64,000 bases of DNA from Pseudomonas protegens. Its GTDB lineage: Bacteria > Pseudomonadota > Gammaproteobacteria > Pseudomonadales > Pseudomonadaceae. Positions 8,631 to 32,525 of this stretch are shown piece by piece. The position numbers and the translations under genes were made by a program. Where the stretch lies: positions 104,126 through 168,125 of the forward strand of contig NZ_MOAK01000027.1 in NCBI RefSeq assembly GCF_003732485.1, given 5' to 3'. Position 1 is the stretch's first letter, and the number at the start of each line of letters is the position of its first letter. The notes beneath the pieces are model-generated. The model made no database searches. It saw only the letters and a list, made by a program, of their open reading frames with translations, and had not been told where the DNA came from.

Positions 8631-9629
8631 ATGAATGACCTCTGCCCTTCTCCGTCCGTTGGCCGGTTGCAGGTGGCGTGCGCCGCATTGCTGCTAGCGG
8701 GCCTGAGCCTGCCACTGTGCGCCGTGCAGGCCGCCCCGCAACGCCTTCCCTATATAGATGACAACCAGCAATGCCGTGGCCAGCCCTTGCCGGCTACCGT
8801 CGAGCACCTGACCGGTGATGCCTGGAAACTGGATGCCAAGGGCCGCGAGGTGGCCCTGGAGGAAGGCATGAGCATCGATGAGCAAGAAGGGGTGAAAACC
8901 TCGCCATCGGCTTTCGTCAGCCTGTCCCTTGGCGATGGTTCGCGAGTGGTGTTGCCCTCCAGCTCCCAGGTCACCCTGCAACTGAATACGCAATACAGCA
9001 TTCCTCAGGTGGTCCTGGAACAGGGCCAGATCGAATCCTATGTGATCAAGCGCAACAGCGACCACGACCGCTTCCAGATCGTGACCCCCGTCGGCGTGTT
9101 GGGGGTACGCGGTACGCACTTCCGGGTGCGCAATGACGACCAGCATTCCCTGGTGGAGGTGCTCAACGGTCAGGTGGCGGTGAGCCGTGATGACCAGCCG
9201 CCGAGTAAGGCTGCTCGGCGTTCCGGCAAGCGCGTTGTGGATAAACCTGCAGGTCCGCTGCCTGAGGAAGTCCAGGTCATGGCGCGCCAGGGATTGCGCA
9301 TTCAGAAGCAGGGCGACCTCAAACCGGTGGAACTGCTGGCCGCGCCCCGGCTGCTGGGGCAGGCCGGACAAACCGGCGCCCTGCCCGTCTGGCAGCTGAT
9401 CCTTCAACCTTTGCCGGGCGCCCGTCGCTATCGGGCACAGGTGGCCACGGACAAGGATTTCCTGAACATCAAGCAGGAACAGTTCTCCAGCACCCCGCAA
9501 GTCAACTTCACTGGTCTGAAGGCGTTTTTCTATCATGTACGGCTCTCGGCATTCGACGAGCATGGCCTGGAAGGAGAAACCGGGGTCTATGACATCTTCT
9601 ACTACCCCAGGACCACACGTGTTCAATAA
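8631..9629 (+). CDS. Secreted FecR-domain protein
   Basis: 332 aa from the ATG at 8631; a start 30 nt further upstream is also open. A signal peptide is clear (hydrophobic LQVACAALLLAGLSLPLCAV, then AQA-type cleavage near APQ), so the protein is probably periplasmic. The FecR domain follows: GMSIDEQEGVKT, FVSLSLGDGSRVVLPSSSQV, LEQGQIESYV and TPVGVLGVRGTHFRV are the hallmark beta strands and GVRGT turn. The C-terminal part (WQLILQPLPGARRYRAQVA) resembles a fibronectin-like fold. It precedes the CHASE2 kinase by 18 nt, suggesting that it presents or modulates the signal the kinase senses. Confidence 0.85.
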   Translation: MNDLCPSPSVGRLQVACAALLLAGLSLPLCAVQAAPQRLPYIDDNQQCRGQPLPATVEHLTGDAWKLDAKGREVALEEGMSIDEQEGVKTSPSAFVSLSLGDGSRVVLPSSSQVTLQLNTQYSIPQVVLEQGQIESYVIKRNSDHDRFQIVTPVGVLGVRGTHFRVRNDDQHSLVEVLNGQVAVSRDDQPPSKAARRSGKRVVDKPAGPLPEEVQVMARQGLRIQKQGDLKPVELLAAPRLLGQAGQTGALPVWQLILQPLPGARRYRAQVATDKDFLNIKQEQFSSTPQVNFTGLKAFFYHVRLSAFDEHGLEGETGVYDIFYYPRTTRVQ

Positions 9630-9647: not shown

Positions 9648-11963
9648 ATGAGTCTCTGGAAGCAACGGACCAACGGCCGCGAGCCGACCCAGGCCCAGCG
9701 CCTGTTTCGCCGCCTGGTACGTGAATGGCTGTGGGTCGGCCTGATTCTTCTGCCCCTGACCGCAGTGCTTTCCCTGAGCCACGGCCTGGCGTTGAACAAC
9801 CTGTTCTATGACAACCTGCGACGCTTTACCCCGCTGCCGGTAGACCCGCGAATTCTGTTGGTGACCATCGACGACTACAGCCTGCAGCAACTGGGACGCT
9901 GGCCCTGGCCACGGGCGATCCATGGACAGTTGCTGGACCGGCTGACGGACGCCAAGGTCAAGGGCGTGCTGTTCGATGTGATCTTCAGCGAGCCCGGCAG
10001 CACTGTGGAAAACGACACGCGGCTGGCCGCCGCCCTGTGTCGCGCCGGCACGGTGTTCCTGCCGGTACTGCGCGAGGGTGTCGCTCGCTATGGCCAGGAC
10101 CTGGAGGAGATCCCTCCGGTGCCGGTGCTGCGCCACTGTGCTCGGGGCCTGGGGCATATCAACGCCGAAGCCGATGCTGACGGTACCGTGCGTAGCGTCT
10201 ACCTGCGGGAAGGCCCGCAGCAGGCGCCGCGGGCGCAGTTGACCTGGTTGCTCTACCAGCTCACCGAAGCCGACCCGCTGTCGCCGCTGATGCCGGGCCC
10301 CGGGACTCCGCAGATTGCCAGGGGCTGGCTGCGAGCCAACCCGGTACGTATTGCCTTTATCGACAAGGCGGCAGGTTTTCCCAGCGTGCCCTATGTCAGC
10401 GTGCTGCGTGGCGAGGTGCCGGCCGAGTTGCTGCGTGACCGGTTGATCCTGGTGGGGTCCACCGCACCGGGGCTGGGCGACCGTTATGTCACCCCGCAGT
10501 CCGGCAGCCAGGGCACGACCCCAGGCGTGGAGATCCAGGCCAACCTGCTCAATGGCCTGTTGCAGCATCGCAGTATTGTCGCCCTGGGCCAGTGGTCGGG
10601 GATGCTGTGGTCCATGGTCCTGACCGCAGCCTTGCTCGGATTGTTGCTGTGGCGTCCGCGCCACGCCTTGTGGATAACCCTGGGTTGCATGGGGCTGGCC
10701 CTGTTGGGGTCGGTGCTGATGCTGCGCTTGGGCTACTGGTGGTCGCCGGTCGCCAGCCTGCTGGGCATGTTGCTGGCGTACCTGATCTGGAACTGGCGTC
10801 GGCTCAGCGTGATCCTGGCCTATTTCGGTTGGGAGCTGGAACGCCTGGACAGCGAGCCCAAGGTGTTGCCGGAACGCCGTCGTAGCCAGCCCCCCGGTGA
10901 TGTGCTGCAAGGGCAGATCGTTGCCCTGGAACAGGCCCTGAGCCGGACCCGGGACACCCGGCGCTTTATCGCCGATGGCTTGGAGTACCTGCCGGTGGCG
11001 ACCCTGATCAGCGATCCGGACGGCAAGATTCTGCTGGCCAACCGCAATGCCCGGGAAGTGTTCGCCCACTCACTGGTCGGACAGCCGTTGATTGCGCAGT
11101 TGGCCGCCCTGGGTTATCCAGGCCTGACGGAACCGGCGCTGTACCCACGTATTGAGCAACTGACAGCGGTGGAGTTTCGCGACATTCAGCAACGCAGCCT
11201 GCGCATGGAACTGGCGCCGCTGCTGCCGGTGGACAGTGACAACGCCATCGGTTGGTTATTGAGCTTCACCGACCTCAGCATCGAGCGGGACGCCGAACAG
11301 CAACGTGGCGTACTGCTGCGTTTTCTTTCCCATGATCTGCGCGCCCCCCATTCGGCGATCCTCGCGCTGCTGGATGTACAGAGTCGCCAGCCATCGCAGC
11401 CCAAGCAGGTCTACAGCCAGATCGAGCAACAGGTGCGTCGGGCCCTGGGGCTGACCGAGGCGTTCGTGCAATTGGCCAAGGCCGAATCGGAGGCCTATCA
11501 GTTCGCGCCGAGCATGTTTGCCATGCTGGTCCTGGATGCCTTCGACCAGGCCACGACCCTGGCCCAGTTGAAAAATATCCACCTGGTGCACGATCTGGAT
11601 GAGGAAGGCGAGAGCATGATCCTGGCGGATCAGTCGCTGCTGACCCGGGCCCTGTTCAATCTGCTGGAAAACGCCATCAAGTACAGCCCGGCGGGGTCCA
11701 CCGTCAATGTTCAGGTGAGCTGTGCCGAGGGCTGGCTGCGTTGCGAAATCATCGACCAGGGCCGGGGCATTGCGGCCCAGGACCTGCCCCTGCTGTTCGG
11801 TCAGTACCAGCGTTTCGCCTCGGCCCAGGGCATCGATGGCCTGGGCCTGGGCCTGTCCATGGTCAAGGCGGTGGTGGACCGGCACCAAGGGCGGATCAGC
11901 TGCCGTAGCGAGGTGGGCCAGGGCTCCTGTTTCATCCTTGAGTTGCCCTTGCTGGAGGAGTAG
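9648..11963 (+). CDS. CHASE2-domain sensor histidine kinase
   Basis: 771 aa. An N-terminal membrane helix (about 25-45) is followed by a CHASE2 extracytoplasmic domain (about 48-310: DPRILLVTIDDYSLQQLGRWPWPR, GVLFDVIFSEP, LILVGSTAPGLGD). Three more membrane helices (about 320-395) lead to a PAS-like segment (LEYLPVATLISDPDGKILLANRNA), a HisKA box SHDLRAPHSAI with His562 as the phospho-acceptor, and an HATPase_c domain with NLLENAIKYSP, DQGRGIA and GLGLGLSMVKAVV. It is probably co-transcribed with the FecR gene, and the divergent OmpR-type regulator is its likely target. Confidence 0.93.
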   Translation: MSLWKQRTNGREPTQAQRLFRRLVREWLWVGLILLPLTAVLSLSHGLALNNLFYDNLRRFTPLPVDPRILLVTIDDYSLQQLGRWPWPRAIHGQLLDRLTDAKVKGVLFDVIFSEPGSTVENDTRLAAALCRAGTVFLPVLREGVARYGQDLEEIPPVPVLRHCARGLGHINAEADADGTVRSVYLREGPQQAPRAQLTWLLYQLTEADPLSPLMPGPGTPQIARGWLRANPVRIAFIDKAAGFPSVPYVSVLRGEVPAELLRDRLILVGSTAPGLGDRYVTPQSGSQGTTPGVEIQANLLNGLLQHRSIVALGQWSGMLWSMVLTAALLGLLLWRPRHALWITLGCMGLALLGSVLMLRLGYWWSPVASLLGMLLAYLIWNWRRLSVILAYFGWELERLDSEPKVLPERRRSQPPGDVLQGQIVALEQALSRTRDTRRFIADGLEYLPVATLISDPDGKILLANRNAREVFAHSLVGQPLIAQLAALGYPGLTEPALYPRIEQLTAVEFRDIQQRSLRMELAPLLPVDSDNAIGWLLSFTDLSIERDAEQQRGVLLRFLSHDLRAPHSAILALLDVQSRQPSQPKQVYSQIEQQVRRALGLTEAFVQLAKAESEAYQFAPSMFAMLVLDAFDQATTLAQLKNIHLVHDLDEEGESMILADQSLLTRALFNLLENAIKYSPAGSTVNVQVSCAEGWLRCEIIDQGRGIAAQDLPLLFGQYQRFASAQGIDGLGLGLSMVKAVVDRHQGRISCRSEVGQGSCFILELPLLEE

Positions 11964-12019: not shown

Positions 12020-12144
12020 TGCGGTAAAACTTATGCACGTTTTTAAAAATTTTATGAGCTTAAGAAATATACATATAAATCAGTGATTTATACGTCTAAT
12101 TCAGTTGTTGTACGAATAGTCGTACACAGGTTATCCACAGAAGC
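12020..12144. other. AT-rich tail-to-tail spacer with inverted repeat and DnaA box
   Basis: A strikingly AT-rich stretch in GC-rich DNA, between two convergent genes where no promoter is needed. It contains the 7-bp inverted repeat TGTACGA (12109-12115) / TCGTACA (12120-12126), followed at once by an exact DnaA box TTATCCACA (12131-12139). Confidence 0.6.
12131..12139. promoter_or_regulatory. DnaA box in the AT-rich spacer
   Basis: Exact TTATCCACA next to the 7-bp inverted repeat, in the tail-to-tail gap before plsC. Confidence 0.75.
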
Positions 12145-12997: not shown

Positions 12998-13531
12998 CTA
13001 ATTGTGGATAAGTTCAGCGGCAACGGCCGCCAGGTCGTCAAAAATCAAGGTGCCTACCGGCAGGGTTTTCCCCAGAGTCTTTTCGCCTTTCCCGGTCTTT
13101 ACCAATACTGGCTGAGAGTCGACGGCTTTTGCGGCCTCCAGGTCACCGAGACTGTCACCGACAAACCATAGACCTGTCAGTTCTGCCTGGTAATGCTCGG
13201 CAATGGTTCGCAGCATGCCCGGTTTCGGTTTGCGGCAGGCGCACCCTTCGTCGGGGCCATGGGGGCAATAGACGATCAGCCCGACCTCGCCGCCCTGCTC
13301 CACCACCAGCTCGCGCAGGCGCGCGTGCATGGCGTCGAGGGTGGCCAGGTCGTAGTAGCCGCGAGCGATGCCGGACTGGTTGGTGGCGATCGCCACCGTC
13401 CAGCCGGCCTTGCTCAACTGCGCAATGGCTTCGATCGAGCCGGGGAGTGGAATCCACTCCTGCACCGATTTGATGTAGGCATCGGAGTCGTGATTGATCA
13501 CGCCGTCACGGTCGAGTATCAGCAGTTTCAC
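12998..13531 (-). CDS. gmhB: D-glycero-beta-D-manno-heptose 1,7-bisphosphate 7-phosphatase
   Basis: 177 aa, the usual size. A HAD-family phosphatase that removes the 7-phosphate in making ADP-heptose for the LPS core. The catalytic motif DRDGVIN is at residues 7-13. The zinc-loop cysteines and histidine (CPHGPDEGCACRKPKPGM) are all present, followed by FVGDSLGDLEAA. It starts 17 nt after the glyS stop, so it is probably in the same transcript. An exact DnaA box overlaps its last codons (13003-13011). Confidence 0.95.
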   Translation of the reverse strand: MKLLILDRDGVINHDSDAYIKSVQEWIPLPGSIEAIAQLSKAGWTVAIATNQSGIARGYYDLATLDAMHARLRELVVEQGGEVGLIVYCPHGPDEGCACRKPKPGMLRTIAEHYQAELTGLWFVGDSLGDLEAAKAVDSQPVLVKTGKGEKTLGKTLPVGTLIFDDLAAVAAELIHN

Positions 13532-16634: not shown

Positions 16635-17198
16635 ATGCCACGCTGCTTTTGGTGTTCCGAAGATCCGCTGTACATGGCTTATCACGATCAGGAGTGGGGC
16701 GTGCCGCTGCGCGATGGGCAGCGTCTGTTCGAGTTGTTATTGCTCGAAGGGTTCCAGGCCGGCCTGTCCTGGATCACCGTGCTGAAGAAGCGCGAGCGCT
16801 ATCGCCAGGTGCTGTTCGGCTTCGATGTGCAGCGCGTGGCGCAGATGAGCGATGCCGAGATCGAGGACCTGATGCAGGACCCGGGCATCATCCGCAACCG
16901 CCTCAAGCTCAACGCCGCCCGGCGCAATGCCCAGGCCTGGCTGGAGCTGGAAGACCCGGTGGCCTTTCTCTGGTCCTTCGTCGGCGGCGTGCCGAAGATC
17001 AATCATTTCCGGGACCGCAGCGAAGTCCCGGCGGTGACCCCGGAGGCCGAAGCCATGAGCCGCGGCCTGCAGAAAGCCGGTTTCACCTTCGTCGGCCCGA
17101 CCATCTGCTACGCGCTGATGCAAGCCTCGGGCATGGTCATGGATCACACGCAGGATTGTGATCGCTACGCCATCCTCGCCAACGCGCGGTTAGAATAG
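16635..17198 (+). CDS. tag: DNA-3-methyladenine glycosylase I
   Basis: 187 aa from the ATG at 16635, with GGAG 4 nt upstream. It excises 3-methyladenine from alkylated DNA. The zinc-snap residues Cys4, His17 (MPRCFW, YHDQEWG) and the C-terminal H-X3-C pair (MDHTQDCDRY) are intact. FELLLLEGFQAGLSWITVL and the PTICYALMQASG segment are typical of Tag. The gene is divergent from glyQ and precedes the lauroyltransferase gene by 42 nt. Confidence 0.96.
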   Translation: MPRCFWCSEDPLYMAYHDQEWGVPLRDGQRLFELLLLEGFQAGLSWITVLKKRERYRQVLFGFDVQRVAQMSDAEIEDLMQDPGIIRNRLKLNAARRNAQAWLELEDPVAFLWSFVGGVPKINHFRDRSEVPAVTPEAEAMSRGLQKAGFTFVGPTICYALMQASGMVMDHTQDCDRYAILANARLE

Positions 17199-17240
17199 CC
17201 GGCTGCGACTAGGTCAAGACCGACAGATCAGGAGTCATGT

Positions 17241-18128
17241 GTGGATAAGTTCAAAGGCGCCCTGCTGGTGGGTGCTCTGCGGTTGTTTGCCCTGCTGCCC
17301 TGGCGCGCGGTGCAAGCGGTCGGCGCGGCCATCGGCTGGATCATGTGGAAGACGCCCAATCGCTCCCGCGATGTGGTGCGCATCAACCTGGCCAAGTGTT
17401 TTCCACAGATGGACCCCGCCGAGCGCGAGCGTCTGGTGGGCCAGAGCCTGAAAGACATCGGCAAGTCCCTGACCGAAAGCGCCTGCGCCTGGATCTGGCC
17501 GGCCGAGCGCTCGATCGCCCTGGTGCGGGAGGTCGAGGGCCTTGACGTACTCAAGGACGCCCTGGCCTCGGGCAAGGGCGTGGTTGGCATCACCAGCCAC
17601 CTGGGCAACTGGGAAGTGCTCAACCACTTCTATTGCAGCCAGTGCAAACCGATCATTTTCTACCGTCCGCCCAAGCTCAAGGCAGTGGACGAACTGCTGC
17701 GCAAGCAGCGGGTGCAACTGGGCAACCGTGTGGCGGCCTCCACCAAGGAAGGCATCCTCAGCGTCATCAAGGAAGTGCGCAAAGGTGGTGCGGTGGGCAT
17801 TCCCGCCGACCCGGAACCGGCCGAATCCGCCGGGATCTTCGTGCCCTTCTTCGCCACCCAGGCCCTCACCAGCAAGTTCGTGCCGAACATGCTGGCCGGC
17901 GGCAAGGCCGTGGGGGTCTTCCTTCACGCCCTGCGCCTGCCGGACGGTTCGGGCTACAAGGTGATCCTCGAAGCGGCCCCGGAAGACATGTACAGCACCG
18001 ACACCGAAACCTCCTGTGCGGCCATGAGCAAGGTGGTCGAACGCTATGTCGGGGCGTATCCGAGCCAGTACATGTGGAGCATGAAACGCTTCAAGAAGCG
18101 CCCGCCGGGTGAGGCACGCTGGTACTGA
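17241..18128 (+). CDS. Lipid A late acyltransferase (lauroyl, LpxL/HtrB type)
   Basis: 295 aa, an inner-membrane enzyme adding a secondary acyl chain to lipid A. An N-terminal hydrophobic helix (about 8-35) and the HX4E catalytic motif HLGNWE are visible, followed by FYRPPK and the substrate-binding GIPADPEP. The start is the GTG at 17241, preceded by AGGAG; an ATG 4 nt earlier would stop after three codons. The GTG lies inside an exact DnaA box (17240-17248). It corresponds in position to PA0011 of P. aeruginosa. Confidence 0.93.
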   Translation: MDKFKGALLVGALRLFALLPWRAVQAVGAAIGWIMWKTPNRSRDVVRINLAKCFPQMDPAERERLVGQSLKDIGKSLTESACAWIWPAERSIALVREVEGLDVLKDALASGKGVVGITSHLGNWEVLNHFYCSQCKPIIFYRPPKLKAVDELLRKQRVQLGNRVAASTKEGILSVIKEVRKGGAVGIPADPEPAESAGIFVPFFATQALTSKFVPNMLAGGKAVGVFLHALRLPDGSGYKVILEAAPEDMYSTDTETSCAAMSKVVERYVGAYPSQYMWSMKRFKKRPPGEARWY

Positions 18129-18143
18129 CCGAGCTGGCACGAT

Positions 18144-18177
18144 CTGTGGATAACCCCGCGTAGGGCGTTATCCACAG
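18144..18177. promoter_or_regulatory. Inverted pair of exact DnaA boxes
   Basis: CTGTGGATAAC at 18144-18154 and its perfect reverse complement GTTATCCACAG at 18167-18177, 12 nt apart, each containing a consensus DnaA box. Located in the 72-nt gap between the lauroyltransferase and the PilZ gene. No T-run follows, so it is not an ordinary terminator. Confidence 0.75.
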
Positions 18178-18200
18178 CACACAGAACAAGGGCGCTGAAG

Positions 18201-18440
18201 ATGTCCGATCACCGCAAGTCGTTCCGTATCAAGATTTCCCACGAGAGCATTGGCGAATGCCTGGGGCAGACCCGCAACCTGTCTGCCAGTGGCGTCTATG
18301 TGCAAAGCCCGGCCCTGGCAACACTGCCCAAGGGCGCGGTGGTCTATGGGCAGGTGCAAGGCCTGCCGGTGGTCGCGCCACGGGTGCGCATGGAAGTGGT
18401 GCAAGTGGATGCGCAAGGGATCGCCCTGCGCTATCTCTGA
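18201..18440 (+). CDS. PilZ-domain c-di-GMP-binding protein
   Basis: 79 aa, little more than a single PilZ domain. Both c-di-GMP motifs are intact: RXXXR at residues 5-9 (RKSFR) and the D/NXSXXG box NLSASG near residue 28. It is probably a stand-alone receptor acting on a partner protein by contact. It follows the acyltransferase gene after a gap that holds the inverted DnaA-box pair. It corresponds to the PA0012 position in P. aeruginosa. Confidence 0.92.
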   Translation: MSDHRKSFRIKISHESIGECLGQTRNLSASGVYVQSPALATLPKGAVVYGQVQGLPVVAPRVRMEVVQVDAQGIALRYL

Positions 18441-18457
18441 CCAGAGGCCACTGGCGC

Positions 18458-18775
18458 TCAGGCCCCGGCTTGGCGCTCGAGCTTCTTGATGAACACGGTC
18501 ATTTCCTTTTCCGCCTGTTTGTCGCCATGGCCGCGTGCGGCCTCCAGCCCCTGCTCCCAGGCCTGGCGCGCCCCTTGAAGGTCGCCCTGCCCCTGGCAAG
18601 CCTTGCCCAGCAGCTTCCAGGCCGCTGAATACTTGGGATCGAAGGCCACGCAGCGTTGCAGGTGCTCAACAGCCTTGGCGTACTCGGCCTGATCCAGATA
18701 GCCCTTGCCCAGACCAAAGCGCAGCAGGGCGTTATCCACACCCTTGGCGAGCATTTTTTCCAGCGATTCAAGCAT
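18458..18775 (-). CDS. Small TPR-repeat protein
   Basis: 105 aa from the ATG at 18775 (a GTG and a TTG just upstream are alternatives). Two to three tetratricopeptide repeats are readable: NALLRFGLGKGYLDQAEYAKA, then LQRCVAFDPKYSAAWKLLGKA, then DLQGARQAWEQGLEAA. Such repeats mediate protein contacts; the partner is unknown. Convergent with the PilZ gene. A DnaA box (18732-18740) lies in its 5-prime part. Confidence 0.85.
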   Translation of the reverse strand: MLESLEKMLAKGVDNALLRFGLGKGYLDQAEYAKAVEHLQRCVAFDPKYSAAWKLLGKACQGQGDLQGARQAWEQGLEAARGHGDKQAEKEMTVFIKKLERQAGA

Positions 18776-18790
18776 CACCAATACCTCATC

Positions 18791-18847
18791 TGTAGGAGCC
18801 GGCTTGCCGGCGAATGCGCTCTCCTTTCGCCGGCAAGCCGGCTCCTG
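18791..18847. repeat. REP pair (inverted)
   Basis: TGTAGGAGCCGGCTTGCCGGCGAA followed by its inverted copy after a 10-15 nt spacer, between the TPR gene and trkA. Each unit is itself a hairpin (GCCGGCTTGCCGGC core). Confidence 0.9.
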
Positions 18848-18851
18848 CGCG

Positions 18852-20225
18852 TCAGAAGAAGCTCAGGCCGACGTGGAACAGTTTCTCCACGTCGCGAATG
18901 TGCTTTTTATCCACAAGGAACAGGATCACGTGGTCCCCGGCTTCGATCACGGTGTCGTCGTGGGCGATCAGCACTTCTTCATCGCGAATGATCGCGCCGA
19001 TGGTGGTGCCCGGCGGCAGGCCGATGTTCTCGATGGCGCGGCCGATCACCTTGCTCGACTTGGCGTCGCCGTGGGCGATGGCCTCGATGGCTTCCGCCGC
19101 GCCACGGCGCAGGGAGTGCACGCTGACGATATCGCCGCGGCGCACGTGGGCCAGCAGGGTGCCGATGGTGGCCAGCTGCGGGCTGATGGCAATGTCGATA
19201 TCGCCACCCTGGATCAGGTCGACATAGGCCGGGTTGTTGATGATGGTCATGACCTTCTTCGCCCCCAGGCGCTTGGCCAGCAGCGAGGACATGATGTTGG
19301 CCTCGTCATCGTTGGTCAGCGCCAGGAAGATGTCGGCGTCGGCGATGTTCTCTTCCAGCAGCAGGTCGCGGTCCGAGGCGCTGCCCTGCAGCACCACGGT
19401 GCTGTCCAGGGTGTCGGACAGGTAGCGGCAGCGGGCCGGGTTCATCTCGATGATCTTCACCTGATAGCGGCTCTCGATGGCCTCGGCCAGGCGCTCGCCG
19501 ATCTGCCCGCCCCCGGCGATGACGATGCGCTTGTAGGACTCTTCCAGGCGGCGCATCTCGCTCATCACCGCGCGGATGTGGGCCTTGGCGGCGATGAAGA
19601 ACACCTCGTCATCGGCCTCGATCACCGTATCGCCCTTGGGCATGATCGGCCGGTCGCGACGGAAGATCGCCGCCACTCGGGTATCGACATTGGGCATGTG
19701 CTCGCGCAACTGGCGCAGTTGCTGGCCCACCAGCGGGCCGCCGTAGTAGGCCTTGACCGCCACCAGTTGCGCCTTGCCCTCGGCGAAGTCGATCACTTGC
19801 AAGGCGCCGGGGTGCTCGATCAGGCGCTTGATGTAGTTGGTCACCACCTGTTCGGGGCTGATCAGCACGTCCACCGGGATGGCGTCGTTGTCGAACAGCC
19901 CGGCGCGGGTCAGGTAGGCGGCCTCGCGCACCCGGGCGATCTTGGTCGGGGTGTGGAACAGGGTATGGGCAACCTGGCAGGCGACCATGTTGGTTTCGTC
20001 GCTGTTGGTCACCGCCACCAGCATGTCGGCGTCGTCGGCGCCGGCCTGGCGCAGCACCGTCGGGAATGAGGCGCGGCCCTGCACGGTGCGGATGTCCAGG
20101 CGATCGCCAAGGTCGCGCAGGCGTTCGCCGTCGGTGTCCACCACGGTGATGTCATTGGCTTCGCTGGCCAGGTGTTCCGCCAGCGTGCCGCCCACTTGCC
20201 CGGCGCCGAGGATGATGATCTTCAT
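18852..20225 (-). CDS. trkA: Trk potassium uptake system, NAD-binding protein TrkA
   Basis: 457 aa, the usual length. A cytoplasmic regulatory subunit of the TrkH/TrkG potassium channel. It has two tandem RCK units, each with a Rossmann NAD-binding start ([20 protein letters not shown] and, at about residue 233, [18 protein letters not shown]) and a TrkA-C domain. It follows rsmB by 22 nt as the last gene of the def-fmt-rsmB-trkA series. An exact DnaA box lies at 18907-18915 near its 3-prime end. Confidence 0.97.
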
Positions 20226-23105: not shown

Positions 23106-23504
23106 AAGCGTAATTGCTACACGTGTGAAGTAAGGGCGGAGTCGGCGTCCTGGCAGGTCCTGGACCTGGGCCGCCGATGCAAAACGTGCTCTGCAAAGGA
23201 GCGAGCCGTGCAGGCTCTGGCGTTTTACGCGAACGCACATAATAAAGGGATTCAGCCCCTGAGGAAATGTCTGTTCACCCTGCTGCTATTGGGCTGGACC
23301 GCCATCGGTCGGACCTGCAAGCGGCTTCGTCAGGCCTGATTGGCGTGCTTGCGGTTGGCTGCACGGGGTGCCGGGCAGAGCATGGCCGAGGTCGATAGCT
23401 CGCGCTCCTGGTGCAGCAGGAAACCTTTCCTCAACAAGTTACCAACAGACTTATCCACAGCTTGTTCCGGCTCTCGCCGGACCTATGACGATCAAGGATG
23501 ATCC
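23106..23504 (+). pseudogene. Gap between def and dprA with a possible LysM-gene relic
   Basis: In most Pseudomonas a LysM-domain gene lies here, ahead of dprA. Instead there is a short open stretch at about 23259-23339 reading [20 protein letters not shown] and then stopping. This resembles the signal-peptide start (MRKSLLALLLL) of that LysM protein, but it begins with CTG and has no mature protein after it. The rest of the 399 nt shows no gene. An exact DnaA box is at 23451-23459, just before dprA. Confidence 0.4.
23451..23459. promoter_or_regulatory. DnaA box upstream of dprA
   Basis: Exact TTATCCACA, 45 nt before the dprA start. One of at least fourteen exact boxes in the window. Confidence 0.7.
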
Positions 23505-24611
23505 ATGTCGCACTCGATCAGTGCTGCCATTTCCCCCGCGGAACTGGAAGCCCGTTTACGTTTGCATGGCCTGCCTGCTCTGGGAGCCATGCGTTTTCAG
23601 CGTTTGCTCCAGGCCTTCGGTTCAGCCTCCAAGGCTCTCAGTGCTCCGGCCCGCGCCTGGCACTCCCTGGATCTGCCAATGGCCTGTACCGACGCCCGGC
23701 GCAGCGTCGAAGTTCGGGAGGGCGCCCGCCGCGCACTGGCCTGGATAGACAACCAGGCCCAGCATTTGCTGATGTGGGACCAGCCCGACTATCCCCCGCT
23801 GCTGGCGCAACTGGAGGATGCGCCACCGCTGTTGTTCGTGGCCGGCGATCCGTCGATTCTTCAACGGCCGCAGCTGGCGCTGGTGGGCAGCCGTCGGGCT
23901 TCGCGTCCGGGGCTGGACACGGCCGCAGCGTTTTCCCGGAGTCTGGCCGCAGCTGGATTCGTGATCACCAGCGGCCTGGCCCTGGGAATCGATGGCGCTG
24001 CGCACCAGGCGGCCCTGGACGTTGGGGGGCGTACCGTGGGCGTGTTGGGCACGGGCCTGGAAAATTGTTATCCACAGCGGCATCGGGCCCTCGCCAGAGC
24101 GATGATCGACCAGGGCAGCGCAGTGATTTCCGAGTTCCCCCTGGACACCGGCCCACGTCCGGAACACTTCCCCAGGCGCAATCGGATCATCAGTGGCCTG
24201 TCCCTGGGGGTACTGGTGGTGGAAGCCAGTGTCGCCAGTGGCTCGCTGATCACCGCCCGCCTGGCGGCCGAGCAGGGCCGCGAGGTGTACGCGATCCCCG
24301 GTTCGATTCATCACCCCGGTGCCCGAGGCTGTCACCAACTGATCCGTGACGGCGCGGTGCTGGTGGAAAGCGTGCAGCACATCCTGGAAACCCTGCGAGG
24401 CTGGCAACACCTGCCGCCGCCCGCTGCAGCGCCGGTGGAGGTCAGTGAGCACCCGCTGCTGGCCCTGCTCCAGGCGGCCCCCCACAGCAGCGAGGCCCTG
24501 GCGCTTGCCAGCGGCTGGTCCCTGCCCCGGGTGCTGGCGGCGCTGACCGAGCTGGAAATCGAGGCTCGGGCAGTCAATGAAAACGGCCGCTGGTTTGCGC
24601 GTCTGAGCTAG
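23505..24611 (+). CDS. dprA: DNA-processing protein DprA
   Basis: 368 aa. DprA binds incoming single-stranded DNA and loads RecA during transformation. An N-terminal helical part (LRLHGLPALGAMRFQRLLQAFG) is followed by the Rossmann-like DprA/Smf core with LALVGSRRASRPGLD, SGLALGIDGAAHQAAL, FPRRNRIISGLS and VEASVASGSLITA, then a C-terminal winged-helix part. A DnaA box lies within the gene (24068-24076) and another in the upstream gap. Confidence 0.96.
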   Translation: MSHSISAAISPAELEARLRLHGLPALGAMRFQRLLQAFGSASKALSAPARAWHSLDLPMACTDARRSVEVREGARRALAWIDNQAQHLLMWDQPDYPPLLAQLEDAPPLLFVAGDPSILQRPQLALVGSRRASRPGLDTAAAFSRSLAAAGFVITSGLALGIDGAAHQAALDVGGRTVGVLGTGLENCYPQRHRALARAMIDQGSAVISEFPLDTGPRPEHFPRRNRIISGLSLGVLVVEASVASGSLITARLAAEQGREVYAIPGSIHHPGARGCHQLIRDGAVLVESVQHILETLRGWQHLPPPAAAPVEVSEHPLLALLQAAPHSSEALALASGWSLPRVLAALTELEIEARAVNENGRWFARLS

Positions 24612-30077: not shown

Positions 30078-30995
30078 CTACAACTTGCCCTTCACCGCCG
30101 CCAGGGCCTCTTTGTCATCGATGGTCCGGACCCCTTCCAGCCATTGCTCCAGCACCGCCGGATTGGCCTTGATCCAGGCCTTGGCGGCGTCGGCGTTGCT
30201 GACCTTCTTGTTCACCACCTCGGCCATGATGGCGTTCTCCATGTCCTGGGTGAACCGCAGATTGGCCAGGAGCTTGCCGACGTTCGGGCAGGCCTGTGCA
30301 TAACCCTTGCGGGTCAGGGTGTAGACGCTGCCGCTGGCGCCGAAGTACTTCTCGCCCCCGGTCAGGTAATGCATTTTCAGCTGCACGTTCATCGGGTGCG
30401 GGGTCCAGCCGAGGAAGGTCACGAAGCGCTGTTTTTTCGTGGCCCGGGACACTTCGGCGAGCATCGCCTGCTCGCTGGATTCGATCAGCTTCCACTGGCC
30501 GAGGCTGAACTCGTTGTTCTTGATGATCTCCTGCAGCGACAGGTTCGCCGGAGCACCGGAGCCGATGCCGTAGATCTTCTTGTCAAACTGGTCGGCGAAC
30601 TTGCTCAGGTCGGCAAAGTCATGCACCCCGGCGTCCCACACGTAGTCCGGAACCGCCAGGGTGAACTCGGTGCCTTCCAGGTTCTTCGCCAGCTGGATCA
30701 CCTCGCCATTGGCCACGAACTTGTCGTAGAAGCCCTGCTGCGCCGGCATCCAGTTGCCCAGGAACACATCCACCTGGCCGTCCTTGAGGCCGCCGTAAGT
30801 GATCGGCACCGCCAGGGTGTCGATCTTGGCCTTGTAGCCCATGCCGTCCAGCAGAAAGCTGGCGATGGCGTTGGTGGCGGCGATATCGCTCCAGCCCGGA
30901 TCGGCCATCTTCACGGTTTCGCACGAGTCGGCCCAGACGGTTGTGCTGCCCAGGGCCAGGAACCCGACTGCCAGCGCTGTGGATAACTTTTGCAT
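30078..30995 (-). CDS. choX: Choline ABC transporter substrate-binding protein
   Basis: 305 aa with a signal peptide (MQKLSTALAVGFLALGSTTVWA). A periplasmic quaternary-amine binding protein of the OpuAC/ProX type: CETVKMADPGWSDIAATNAI, VFLGNWMPAQQGFYD and FVTFLGWTPHPMNVQL contain the aromatic residues expected for a choline cage. No ABC permease or ATPase gene is beside it, so it must work with a transporter encoded elsewhere. It follows betC by 15 nt, so choline-sulfate cleavage and choline capture are co-expressed. A DnaA box overlaps the signal-peptide region. Confidence 0.9.
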   Translation of the reverse strand: MQKLSTALAVGFLALGSTTVWADSCETVKMADPGWSDIAATNAIASFLLDGMGYKAKIDTLAVPITYGGLKDGQVDVFLGNWMPAQQGFYDKFVANGEVIQLAKNLEGTEFTLAVPDYVWDAGVHDFADLSKFADQFDKKIYGIGSGAPANLSLQEIIKNNEFSLGQWKLIESSEQAMLAEVSRATKKQRFVTFLGWTPHPMNVQLKMHYLTGGEKYFGASGSVYTLTRKGYAQACPNVGKLLANLRFTQDMENAIMAEVVNKKVSNADAAKAWIKANPAVLEQWLEGVRTIDDKEALAAVKGKL

Positions 30996-31010: not shown

Positions 31011-32525
31011 TTATTGGTTTTGGCAGGGTTGTGGATAACGAGCCTTGCGCTCCAGATCGTCGAGGTCGATGTGGTTGCGCATGTATTGCGCACTGGCGTC
31101 TACCAGCGGCTGGTGATCCCAGCTCTTGCGCGTGCCCCGGCCCAGGGCGTCGGCCACCAGGCGGCGACGGCGCTGGCTGGCCAGGACCTGTTGGTGAAGG
31201 GTCGGGATGTCCCACTTGGCCCGGGCTTCGGCGAGGAAAGCGCTGAACAGTGCTCGATGCTCGGCCGACTGGCTGAGGTCGCGGTGTTCCTGGGTGTCGT
31301 TGGCTACATCGAAGAGTAGGCAGGGGTCGTCTTCGCTGTAGATGAATTTGTAGGCGCCCCGACGAATCATCATCAGCGGGCTGATGGTGCCTTCGGCCAT
31401 GTATTCGCCGAACACCTCATCGTGGCCGCCCTGCCCCAGCAGATGGGGAACCAGCGAGCGGCCGTCCAGGGGCAGGTCCGCCTCCACCCGGCCGCCGGCC
31501 AGTTCCACCAGGGTCGGCAGCAGGTCGGCGGTGGAGACTGCCGCGCTGACTCGCCCGGCGGCGAACTGCCCCGGTGCGCAGATCAACAGCGGCACCCGGG
31601 CGGCCATTTCGAACCAGTGCATTTTGTACCAGAGGCCGCGCTCCCCGAGCATGTCGCCGTGGTCGCCGGAAAACACGATCAGGGTGTCGTCCGCCAACCC
31701 GGTGTCTTCAAGGGTCTGCAGCAGTTTGCCGACGTTGCTGTCGATGTAGCTGCAGGCGCCGAAGTAGGCCCGCCGCGCGTCGCGGATCTTATCCACAGGC
31801 AGGGGCTTGTCCCACAGGTCGTAGACCTTGAGCAGGCGCTGGGAATGAGGGTCCAGTTCGCTTTGCGGTGGGGTCTGGGGCAGTGGGATCTCGTCGTCGC
31901 GGTACAGGTCCCAGAAGGCCTTGGGAATGGTGTAGGGATCGTGGGGGTGGGTCATGGACACCGTCAGGCAGAACGGCTGGTCGCCGTCCTCGCGGACATG
32001 GTCGAACAGGTACTGCTGGGCCTTGAACACCACCTCTTCATCGAAATCCAGCTGGTTGGTGCGCACGCAGGGCCCGGCCTGCAGCACCGAGGACATGTTG
32101 TGGTACCAGCTGGGACGCACTTGGGGCTCATCCCAGTTCACTGCCCAGCCGTAGTCGGCGGGGTAGATATCGGTGGTCAGGCGCTCTTCATAACCGTGCA
32201 ACTGATCCGGGCCGCAGAAGTGCATCTTGCCCGACAGCGCGGTGCGGTAGCCCAGGCGCCGCAGGTAGTGGGCGTAGGTGGGCACGTCGGCGGGAAAGTC
32301 CGCAGCGTTGTCATAGGCGCCGATCCTGCTCGGCAACTGCCCGCTGACCAGGGTAAAGCGCGACGGTGCGCACAGGGGGCTGTTGCAGTAGGCGGCATCG
32401 AATACCACGCCCTGGGCAGCCAGACGGCTGAGGTGCGGCAGCTTGATCGGCGATGAACCGTAGAACGGCAGCAAGGGCGCGGCCATCTGGTCGGCCATGA
32501 TGAAAAGAATGTTCTTGCGCTTCAT
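31011..32525 (-). CDS. betC: Choline-sulfatase
   Basis: 504 aa from the ATG at 32525 (MKRKNILFIMADQMAAPLLP). It hydrolyses choline-O-sulfate to choline and sulfate. The sulfatase signature CAPSRFTLVSGQLPSRIG carries the Cys that becomes formylglycine; metal-site residues are in IMADQ and VFSGDHGDMLGERGLWYKMHWFE. The C-terminal choline-sulfatase extension is present. Divergent from a LysR regulator with a 114-nt shared promoter region. Confidence 0.95.
   Translation of the reverse strand: MKRKNILFIMADQMAAPLLPFYGSSPIKLPHLSRLAAQGVVFDAAYCNSPLCAPSRFTLVSGQLPSRIGAYDNAADFPADVPTYAHYLRRLGYRTALSGKMHFCGPDQLHGYEERLTTDIYPADYGWAVNWDEPQVRPSWYHNMSSVLQAGPCVRTNQLDFDEEVVFKAQQYLFDHVREDGDQPFCLTVSMTHPHDPYTIPKAFWDLYRDDEIPLPQTPPQSELDPHSQRLLKVYDLWDKPLPVDKIRDARRAYFGACSYIDSNVGKLLQTLEDTGLADDTLIVFSGDHGDMLGERGLWYKMHWFEMAARVPLLICAPGQFAAGRVSAAVSTADLLPTLVELAGGRVEADLPLDGRSLVPHLLGQGGHDEVFGEYMAEGTISPLMMIRRGAYKFIYSEDDPCLLFDVANDTQEHRDLSQSAEHRALFSAFLAEARAKWDIPTLHQQVLASQRRRRLVADALGRGTRKSWDHQPLVDASAQYMRNHIDLDDLERKARYPQPCQNQ

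Follow-up and report, generated by a model that had tools for sequence, protein, structure and literature searches.

An inverted pair of exact DnaA boxes between a lipid A acyltransferase gene and a gene for a PilZ-like protein of Pseudomonas protegens was found to belong to a dense field of boxes around the replication origin. Our preferred reading, to which we give about an even chance on the basis of genome comparison, is that the pair represents two predicted DnaA sites of an oriC-proximal field of 40 consensus boxes that titrates DnaA. What we observe are the sites, how densely they lie and how well they are conserved within the clade, by position as well as by sequence and including boxes in coding regions; binding of DnaA and titration are what we infer from them.

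An exact-word scan of the window, i.e. the whole 64,000-nt stretch of DNA that was analyzed, located the DnaA box TTATCCACA at 18145..18153 on the minus strand (left box) and at 18168..18176 on the plus strand (right box), with a box-to-box distance of 14 nt. The pair lies in an inverted repeat, also a predicted RNA hairpin (18144..18177, no strand), with perfect 11-nt arms at 18144-18154 and 18167-18177 separated by 12 nt and extendable to 14 nt at 93% complementarity; its inner four pairs covary in relatives. The gap reads ...GATC TGTGGATAA CCCCGCGTAGGGCG TTATCCACA GC... and is 72 nt long, from the stop of the lpxL-like gene at 18128 to the PilZ start at 18201, and the right box ends 24 nt before that start. 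The two exact boxes, the 11-bp perfect inverted repeat, the 12-nt spacer and the 72-nt gap described in an earlier, sequence-only reading are all present, and both words, there called DnaA boxes, are exact consensus boxes kept as such across the close clade. The word TTATCCACA is listed as the high-affinity box of P. putida (PMC4285127). Among 52 named loci with a short spacer the bases flanking the pair are C...A in 40, C...G in 11 and C...C in one, so that many relatives lack the C...G pair that closes the 11-bp arms on the outside here. Chance does not account for the pair: TTATNCACA has 16 occurrences in the window where 0.44 are expected, a number that 0/100 shuffles reach, and the facing arrangement CTGTGGATAAC-N4-30-GTTATCCACAG is present at a single location in the 7.2 Mb of the genome, with 0 for the reversed control. 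Boxes as such are not peculiar to the lpxL-PilZ gap, as the window holds 14 exact ones in total.

Upstream of the pair lies the lipid A acyltransferase gene (lpxL/htrB-like, 17241..18128, plus strand; PF03279, E 3.2e-48). The downstream gene (18201..18440, plus strand) encodes a protein of 79 aa, and its earlier designation as PilZ holds in the form PilZ-like, the match to PF07238 (E 2e-4) scoring 22.1 bits, 0.4 below the curated cut-off of 22.5. By eye, the protein has RxxxR and NxSxxG, which we take to be the c-di-GMP-binding motifs of PilZ. Facing it on the minus strand is a gene for a TPR protein (18458..18781; profile match), whose coding sequence contains a conserved box.

The dnaA gene is situated at about window positions -1384 to 100 and rpmH at -2073 to -1936. 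Since dnaA ends at the window start and rpmH lies to its left, oriC is placed immediately to the left of where the window begins. From the dnaA start to the pair, which lies on the right, the distance is 19.5 kb. The order rpmH-oriC-dnaA is as described for P. putida (PMC3056050), where twelve boxes are known in the dnaA promoter region (review PMC8203912).

Around this origin, 40 exact boxes were counted in a region of 76.5 kb that extends 43.4 kb to the left and 33.2 kb to the right of the dnaA start. The whole 7.2-Mb genome contains 166 exact boxes (16 occurrences of the reversed word), and the density of the field is 51.9 per 100 kb vs. 1.76 elsewhere, a ratio of 29.5, or 25.8 when the five oriC/dnaA boxes are omitted. 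The 226-kb contig carries 43 exact boxes, 40 of them in the field and the other three some 95 kb to the left of window position 1. These three have the same orientation and lie outside the field within 103 bp of each other (window -95133 to -95031; contig C53 8992-9094). Besides the pair, about 38 further exact boxes around oriC are found beside or inside other genes, and outside oriC the pair represents the sole facing field boxes within 120 bp of each other in this genome. A strand-biased array was considered and rejected, the two orientations numbering 7 and 8 on the right arm and 7 and 14 on the left.

Next to the pair, exact boxes are located across the GTG start codon of lpxL, which one of them overlaps (17240..17248, minus strand; kept in 5/10 aligned genomes), in the TPR gene (18732..18740, plus; 7/9) and in an ORF named trkA-like by eye (18907..18915, plus; 6/10). 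Nearer the origin, field boxes occur on the minus strand at 9236..9244 (1/2), 10669..10677 (1/3) and 13003..13011 (5/8) and on the plus strand at 12131..12139 (7/7). Farther out, they were found at 23451..23459 (plus; 6/6), with a box-like word of 2 mismatches 3 bp off, at 24068..24076 (plus; 8/10), at 30978..30986 (minus; 6/8), at 31030..31038 (minus; 7/9) and, as the rightmost box of the right arm, at 31789..31797 (plus; 4/9).

An excess of boxes near oriC is a feature of all 11 genus genomes analyzed, the present one included, with 10-43 boxes per region. Composition as the cause was rejected, the words made by permuting the letters having a mean of 0.2-0.6 and a best single word of 5-8. 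The lowest count belongs to G138, with just 10 boxes; nine of these lie less than 20 kb from dnaA, on its left side. The genomes compared with ours, nine single-contig ones and G128 with two contigs, were fetched in stretches reaching unequal distances from dnaA, and the retention counts for aligned boxes refer to these 10 non-random genomes of one genus, uncorrected for relatedness. Aligned box instances were retained in 199 of 263 cases vs. 75 expected from neighbouring 9-mers, the 263 including 30 instances of oriC boxes, all retained, and 5 of the 43 boxes being without alignment. With oriC omitted, retention was 168/233 (0.72) for exact boxes, 130/243 (0.53) for one-mismatch words and 627/1590 (0.39) for permuted words. 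One-mismatch words are also above permuted ones, and therefore a bias of word type or weaker sites may contribute to the signal.

Plain conservation of coding sequence as an explanation was ruled out by a comparison restricted to wobble positions, with the caveat just given for one-mismatch words. Among coding boxes with identical non-wobble positions, 125/142 were retained vs. 56.5 expected (coding status inferred from the phase of mismatches; the 142 include 8 instances from the two boxes of the gap, which have coding sequence on their flanks). All 22 coding boxes outside the gap exceed their own control (sign test), although for six of them no more than two genomes could be aligned, in some cases one, and a further box exceeds it barely. 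The excess is missing in the two most distant genomes, G138 (4/17 vs. 0.22 for permuted words) and G012 (2/17 vs. 0.18), and the field is therefore regarded as a clade trait. Seven genomes from six other genera of the family have 2 to 25 boxes outside oriC on the left arm and 0 to 4 on the right, within the fetched stretches (7 to 61 kb on the right). The low number on the right indicates that the right-arm field, and the pair with it, characterizes part of the genus. The distance from the lpxL-PilZ pair to dnaA is 51 kb in G005, 67 kb in G128 and 34 kb in G100, vs. 19.5 kb here. In these three genomes the lpxL-PilZ block is 14 to 48 kb further out and retains boxes, with a box-free stretch in between; an inserted island is a likely cause of the larger distance.

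The sequence-only reading suggested that the pair may belong to a DnaA-regulated promoter serving PilZ. In a wider form of this idea, DnaA at the facing boxes would control a promoter in the gap or block read-through from lpxL, and the level of PilZ would be coupled to DnaA. Such an arrangement fits the 24 nt between the right box and the PilZ start and the roadblock termination by DnaA described in E. coli (PMC11317965). A simple consensus scan for sigma-70-like promoters, the one promoter type within its scope, gave none in 17000-19000. The 38 other exact boxes around oriC, which as a set are also conserved, speak against a role confined to this gene as well.

The distribution of the pair among relatives bears on the same question. 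Of 149 genus genomes, 61 (own included) gave a PilZ match, namely 34 close and 26 distant genomes plus G037. Both boxes are exact in 32 of the 34 close genomes, as counted by reading the sequences; 25 of these 32 have spacers of 12-16 nt and seven of 62-109 nt, and five of the seven long spacers contain inserts that look by eye like the REP type. Such REP-like palindromic repeats lie between the boxes in L007, L010, L014, L017 and L030, and both boxes are still exact there. The distant genomes lack any box in the 400 nt upstream of PilZ (0/26).

A second set, the best 80 of 226 named loci, includes P. protegens, chlororaphis, fluorescens, koreensis, jessenii, mandelii and others; it overlaps the 149 genomes, and the two sets of counts are not additive. 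Both boxes are exact in 72 of these 80 loci, one box has 1-2 changes in five and no pair was found in three. The spacer is 12-15 nt long in 54 of the 77 loci with a pair, a point in favour of DnaA control of PilZ, and is stretched to 46-109 nt in 20 of the 77, a point against it.

The 50 genomes first by handle number among the 88 without a PilZ match were inspected in the same way. Neither box of the pair is present in 42 of them, which agrees with a link to PilZ. Three retain the pair, however, and four more keep the left box alone, right after lpxL; L187 has one box elsewhere in the gap, 39 have none there and three have a box 159-194 nt after lpxL, taken as belonging to the following gene. 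In G037 (L166) the PilZ match covers residues 1-36 alone, in a frame of 42 codons, i.e. a truncated PilZ, and the pair is retained. The pair and PilZ are mostly inherited or lost together, yet each is found without the other. Because the pair survives without PilZ (3/50, and beside one truncated gene) and all 26 distant PilZ genes lack it, control of PilZ is possible but not favoured, and we rate it as rather unlikely. The narrower claim of a DnaA-regulated promoter specific to PilZ finds no support in the same observations or in the scan for sigma-70-like sites in 17000-19000.

The sequence-only reading had named a hairpin in the mRNA as the alternative, and this receives some support. Folding of the gap RNA gives a predicted stem of 13 bp (-26.1 kcal/mol, z -2.25; 6/200 shuffles as good), which in the lpxL-PilZ transcript could affect PilZ translation, processing or stability; the resemblance to DnaA boxes would then be secondary. 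At the inner four positions, all 35 distinct 14-nt spacers together show 16 both-sided cells vs. 4.1 in shuffled sets (0/500). When the partner is slid, all pairing measures for these 35 spacers drop save the number of pair types, which one slid version equals. A tree of 51 loci has 7 both-sided changes over five inner positions, compared with 3 when the partner is shifted by one position and 2 when it is shifted by two. Against shuffles of the 35 spacers, pairing at four positions was reached in 0/5000; at three positions the result is weak (35/5000 with standard pairs, 638/5000 with Watson-Crick pairs). In a hand-picked set of 26 spacers (24 of the 35 plus two others), the number of pairs with both-sided changes was not unusual (57/500 shuffles). 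Kinship among the loci can inflate the shuffle result. The alignments admit exact-box loci alone, so that the outer nine pairs are fixed and the invariant arms carry no evidence. We read the inner-pair covariation as real pairing, either selected or maintained by template-switch repair.

The arms themselves behave differently from the inner pairs. Both 9-mers are exact in 72 of the 77 pairs from the best 80 of 226 named loci, and in the five loci with a changed box the other box is intact, so that no compensated change was observed; the arm sequence therefore matters, and not pairing alone. In 20 of the 77 the loop has grown to 46-109 nt through inserts, an intrinsic terminator (GC-rich stem with a U-run) is lacking at the gap, and no other facing field boxes within 120 bp occur outside oriC in this genome. 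Judging from sequence, the hairpin may have a structural role, but as the main function of the pair we find it improbable, at about the level of PilZ control. Template-switch repair of quasi-palindromes yields both-sided changes beside perfect arms. A functionless old inverted duplication kept symmetric in this way would account for the both-sided changes next to the perfect arms on the 51-locus tree; it would leave unexplained the exact 9-mer pairs in 72 of the best 80 of 226 named loci despite a variable spacer, the boxes that stay exact after being split by insertions and the field as a whole, and we consider it very unlikely.

Facing boxes might also nucleate a complex that alters the nucleotide state of DnaA, like boxes I and II of E. 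coli DARS. DARS and datA resemble the present pair in being DnaA sites outside oriC, and DARS has an oppositely oriented box; the core of DARS consists of three boxes, with box I opposite to II and III, and datA has five (PMC5742627, PMC5295017). DARS2 and datA also require IHF, and DARS2 Fis as well (PMC5742627, PMC5295017). The opposite orientation of the pair, its near-constant spacing in most close loci and the head-to-head contact stated as a feature of DARS (PMC5742627) favour a module of this kind. Against it, DARS cores share three boxes at a common spacing, the spacing of the present pair is lost in loci with insertions, and no box-like word was found at 2-3 bp from either member of the pair (best candidate 6 mismatches for both boxes). 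Identity with a DARS core was rejected, the third box being absent and the gap holding two exact boxes, and a DARS-like function seems to us scarcely probable.

In E. coli, 13 of 32 consensus boxes are at regions bound in ChIP-seq, and paired boxes 2-3 bp apart are preferred (Stringer et al. 2024, PMC11317965). The pair studied here shares with this double DnaA box the pairing of boxes; as a candidate the double box, with the same orientation and 2-3 bp between boxes, was rejected, as our two boxes face each other across 14 nt and neither is accompanied by a partner 2-3 bp away. In the field as a whole, partner words at 2-3 bp (at most 4 mismatches) accompany 11 of 40 boxes vs. 5.5 expected, a weak excess. 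Since E. coli favours close double boxes, and the field has this weak excess and the pair none, single boxes may bind weakly.

The titration reading, which we prefer, has its nearest parallels in two other systems. DnaA boxes accumulate around oriC in E. coli and Salmonella, and titration of DnaA immediately after initiation has been proposed as their role (Olivi et al. 2025, PMC12371093). The likeness is an excess of boxes near oriC; in those species the peak spreads widely (windows of 10 centisomes, degenerate motifs, median Z 2.1; PMC12371093), whereas here the exact word TTATCCACA is enriched 29-fold in 77 kb, i.e. ~1% of the genome, and single sites are conserved inside genes. In B. subtilis, joint removal of six oriC-proximal DnaA-box clusters leads to early initiation, ascribed to free DnaA (Okumura et al. 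2012, via PMC5295017). These sites too are near the origin yet outside oriC, but they are clusters, unlike the mostly single boxes scattered here over genes and gaps. What appears to be new is the dense field of exact boxes in Pseudomonas; oriC-proximal accumulation in E. coli and Salmonella and the clusters of B. subtilis were known already. The word Pseudomonas has 0 occurrences in the main text of PMC12371093, and among the matches listed for open-licence articles in PubMed Central, a scope mostly outside the subscription literature, the titles and abstract openings yielded no description of such a field in Pseudomonas or of DnaA control of PilZ.

Under the titration reading, each box of the field would bind DnaA, and the field would be replicated soon after initiation. 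At usual fork speeds, copying it takes about a minute. With the high-affinity sites beside oriC doubled, free DnaA would fall, and oriC would be spared from premature refiring. The DnaA of G061 contains DHTT, which we take to be the motif of its DNA-binding domain. Hda is present in the P. protegens genome (profile search, above cut-off), and SeqA (PF03925) gave no match in this genome, which is 96.5% complete, in a search that detects the E. coli SeqA; with Hda detectable and SeqA not, there is room for a titration mechanism. The inner-pair covariation is unexplained by titration. Beyond titration, the pair may add a local role, either as a DnaA roadblock between lpxL and PilZ or through mRNA structure.

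Chromosomal titration of DnaA in bacteria is an old question, and a recent study calls experimental evidence still lacking and then offers it for E. coli (PMC12371093, 2025). A 29-fold packing of boxes in 77 kb around oriC, conserved site by site, provides a cleaner natural case, in which titration becomes testable by removal or relocation of boxes. It also advises caution, in that a DnaA box beside a gene of the oriC region need not mean regulation of that gene. A broader proposal, offered tentatively and with the chances somewhat against it, is that in one large Pseudomonas clade the control of initiation depends on a dispersed titration field, in which ~35-40 consensus boxes within about 45 kb of oriC, in genes as well as gaps and under purifying selection at synonymous sites, replace sequestration of the SeqA type, that the facing pair, the one tight pair of this kind in the field, combines a DnaA site with a hairpin, and that a second, strictly patterned cluster ~0.55 Mb from oriC is a datA-like partner.

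This second cluster (L170 985-3531; G000:C24:153584-156130) packs eight exact DnaA boxes into 2.5 kb next to an ORF that is etfB-like by eye, with four direct copies 172-193 nt apart in what appears by eye to be a repeated unit. Some of its boxes have a box-like word 3 bp on and resemble E. coli double boxes. The matching locus has 6-8 boxes in 7/7 relatives, and of 119 genus genomes 43 show a strict three-box pattern, compared with 0 for the reversed control. In G061, G062, G036, G097 and G108 a cluster of this type lies ~530-590 kb left of oriC by contig coordinates, distances which assume that the contig starts near dnaA, as confirmed in G061. Its sequence makes it a candidate datA-like locus.

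Facing pairs of DnaA boxes of some kind occur in 117 of 199 genus genomes. Two more families recur among the matches listed, L155 (G061:C1:320593-320637) and L154 (G000:C63:45313-45358), both inside coding sequence, by eye for a RecQ-like helicase and a mechanosensitive-channel-like protein, respectively. At L169 (G000:C20:134015-134069), between genes that are livF-like and dehydrogenase-like by eye, facing boxes flank a GC-rich palindrome and a T-run in a terminator-like fashion, and the same arrangement is found in G061 (C1:669524-669577).
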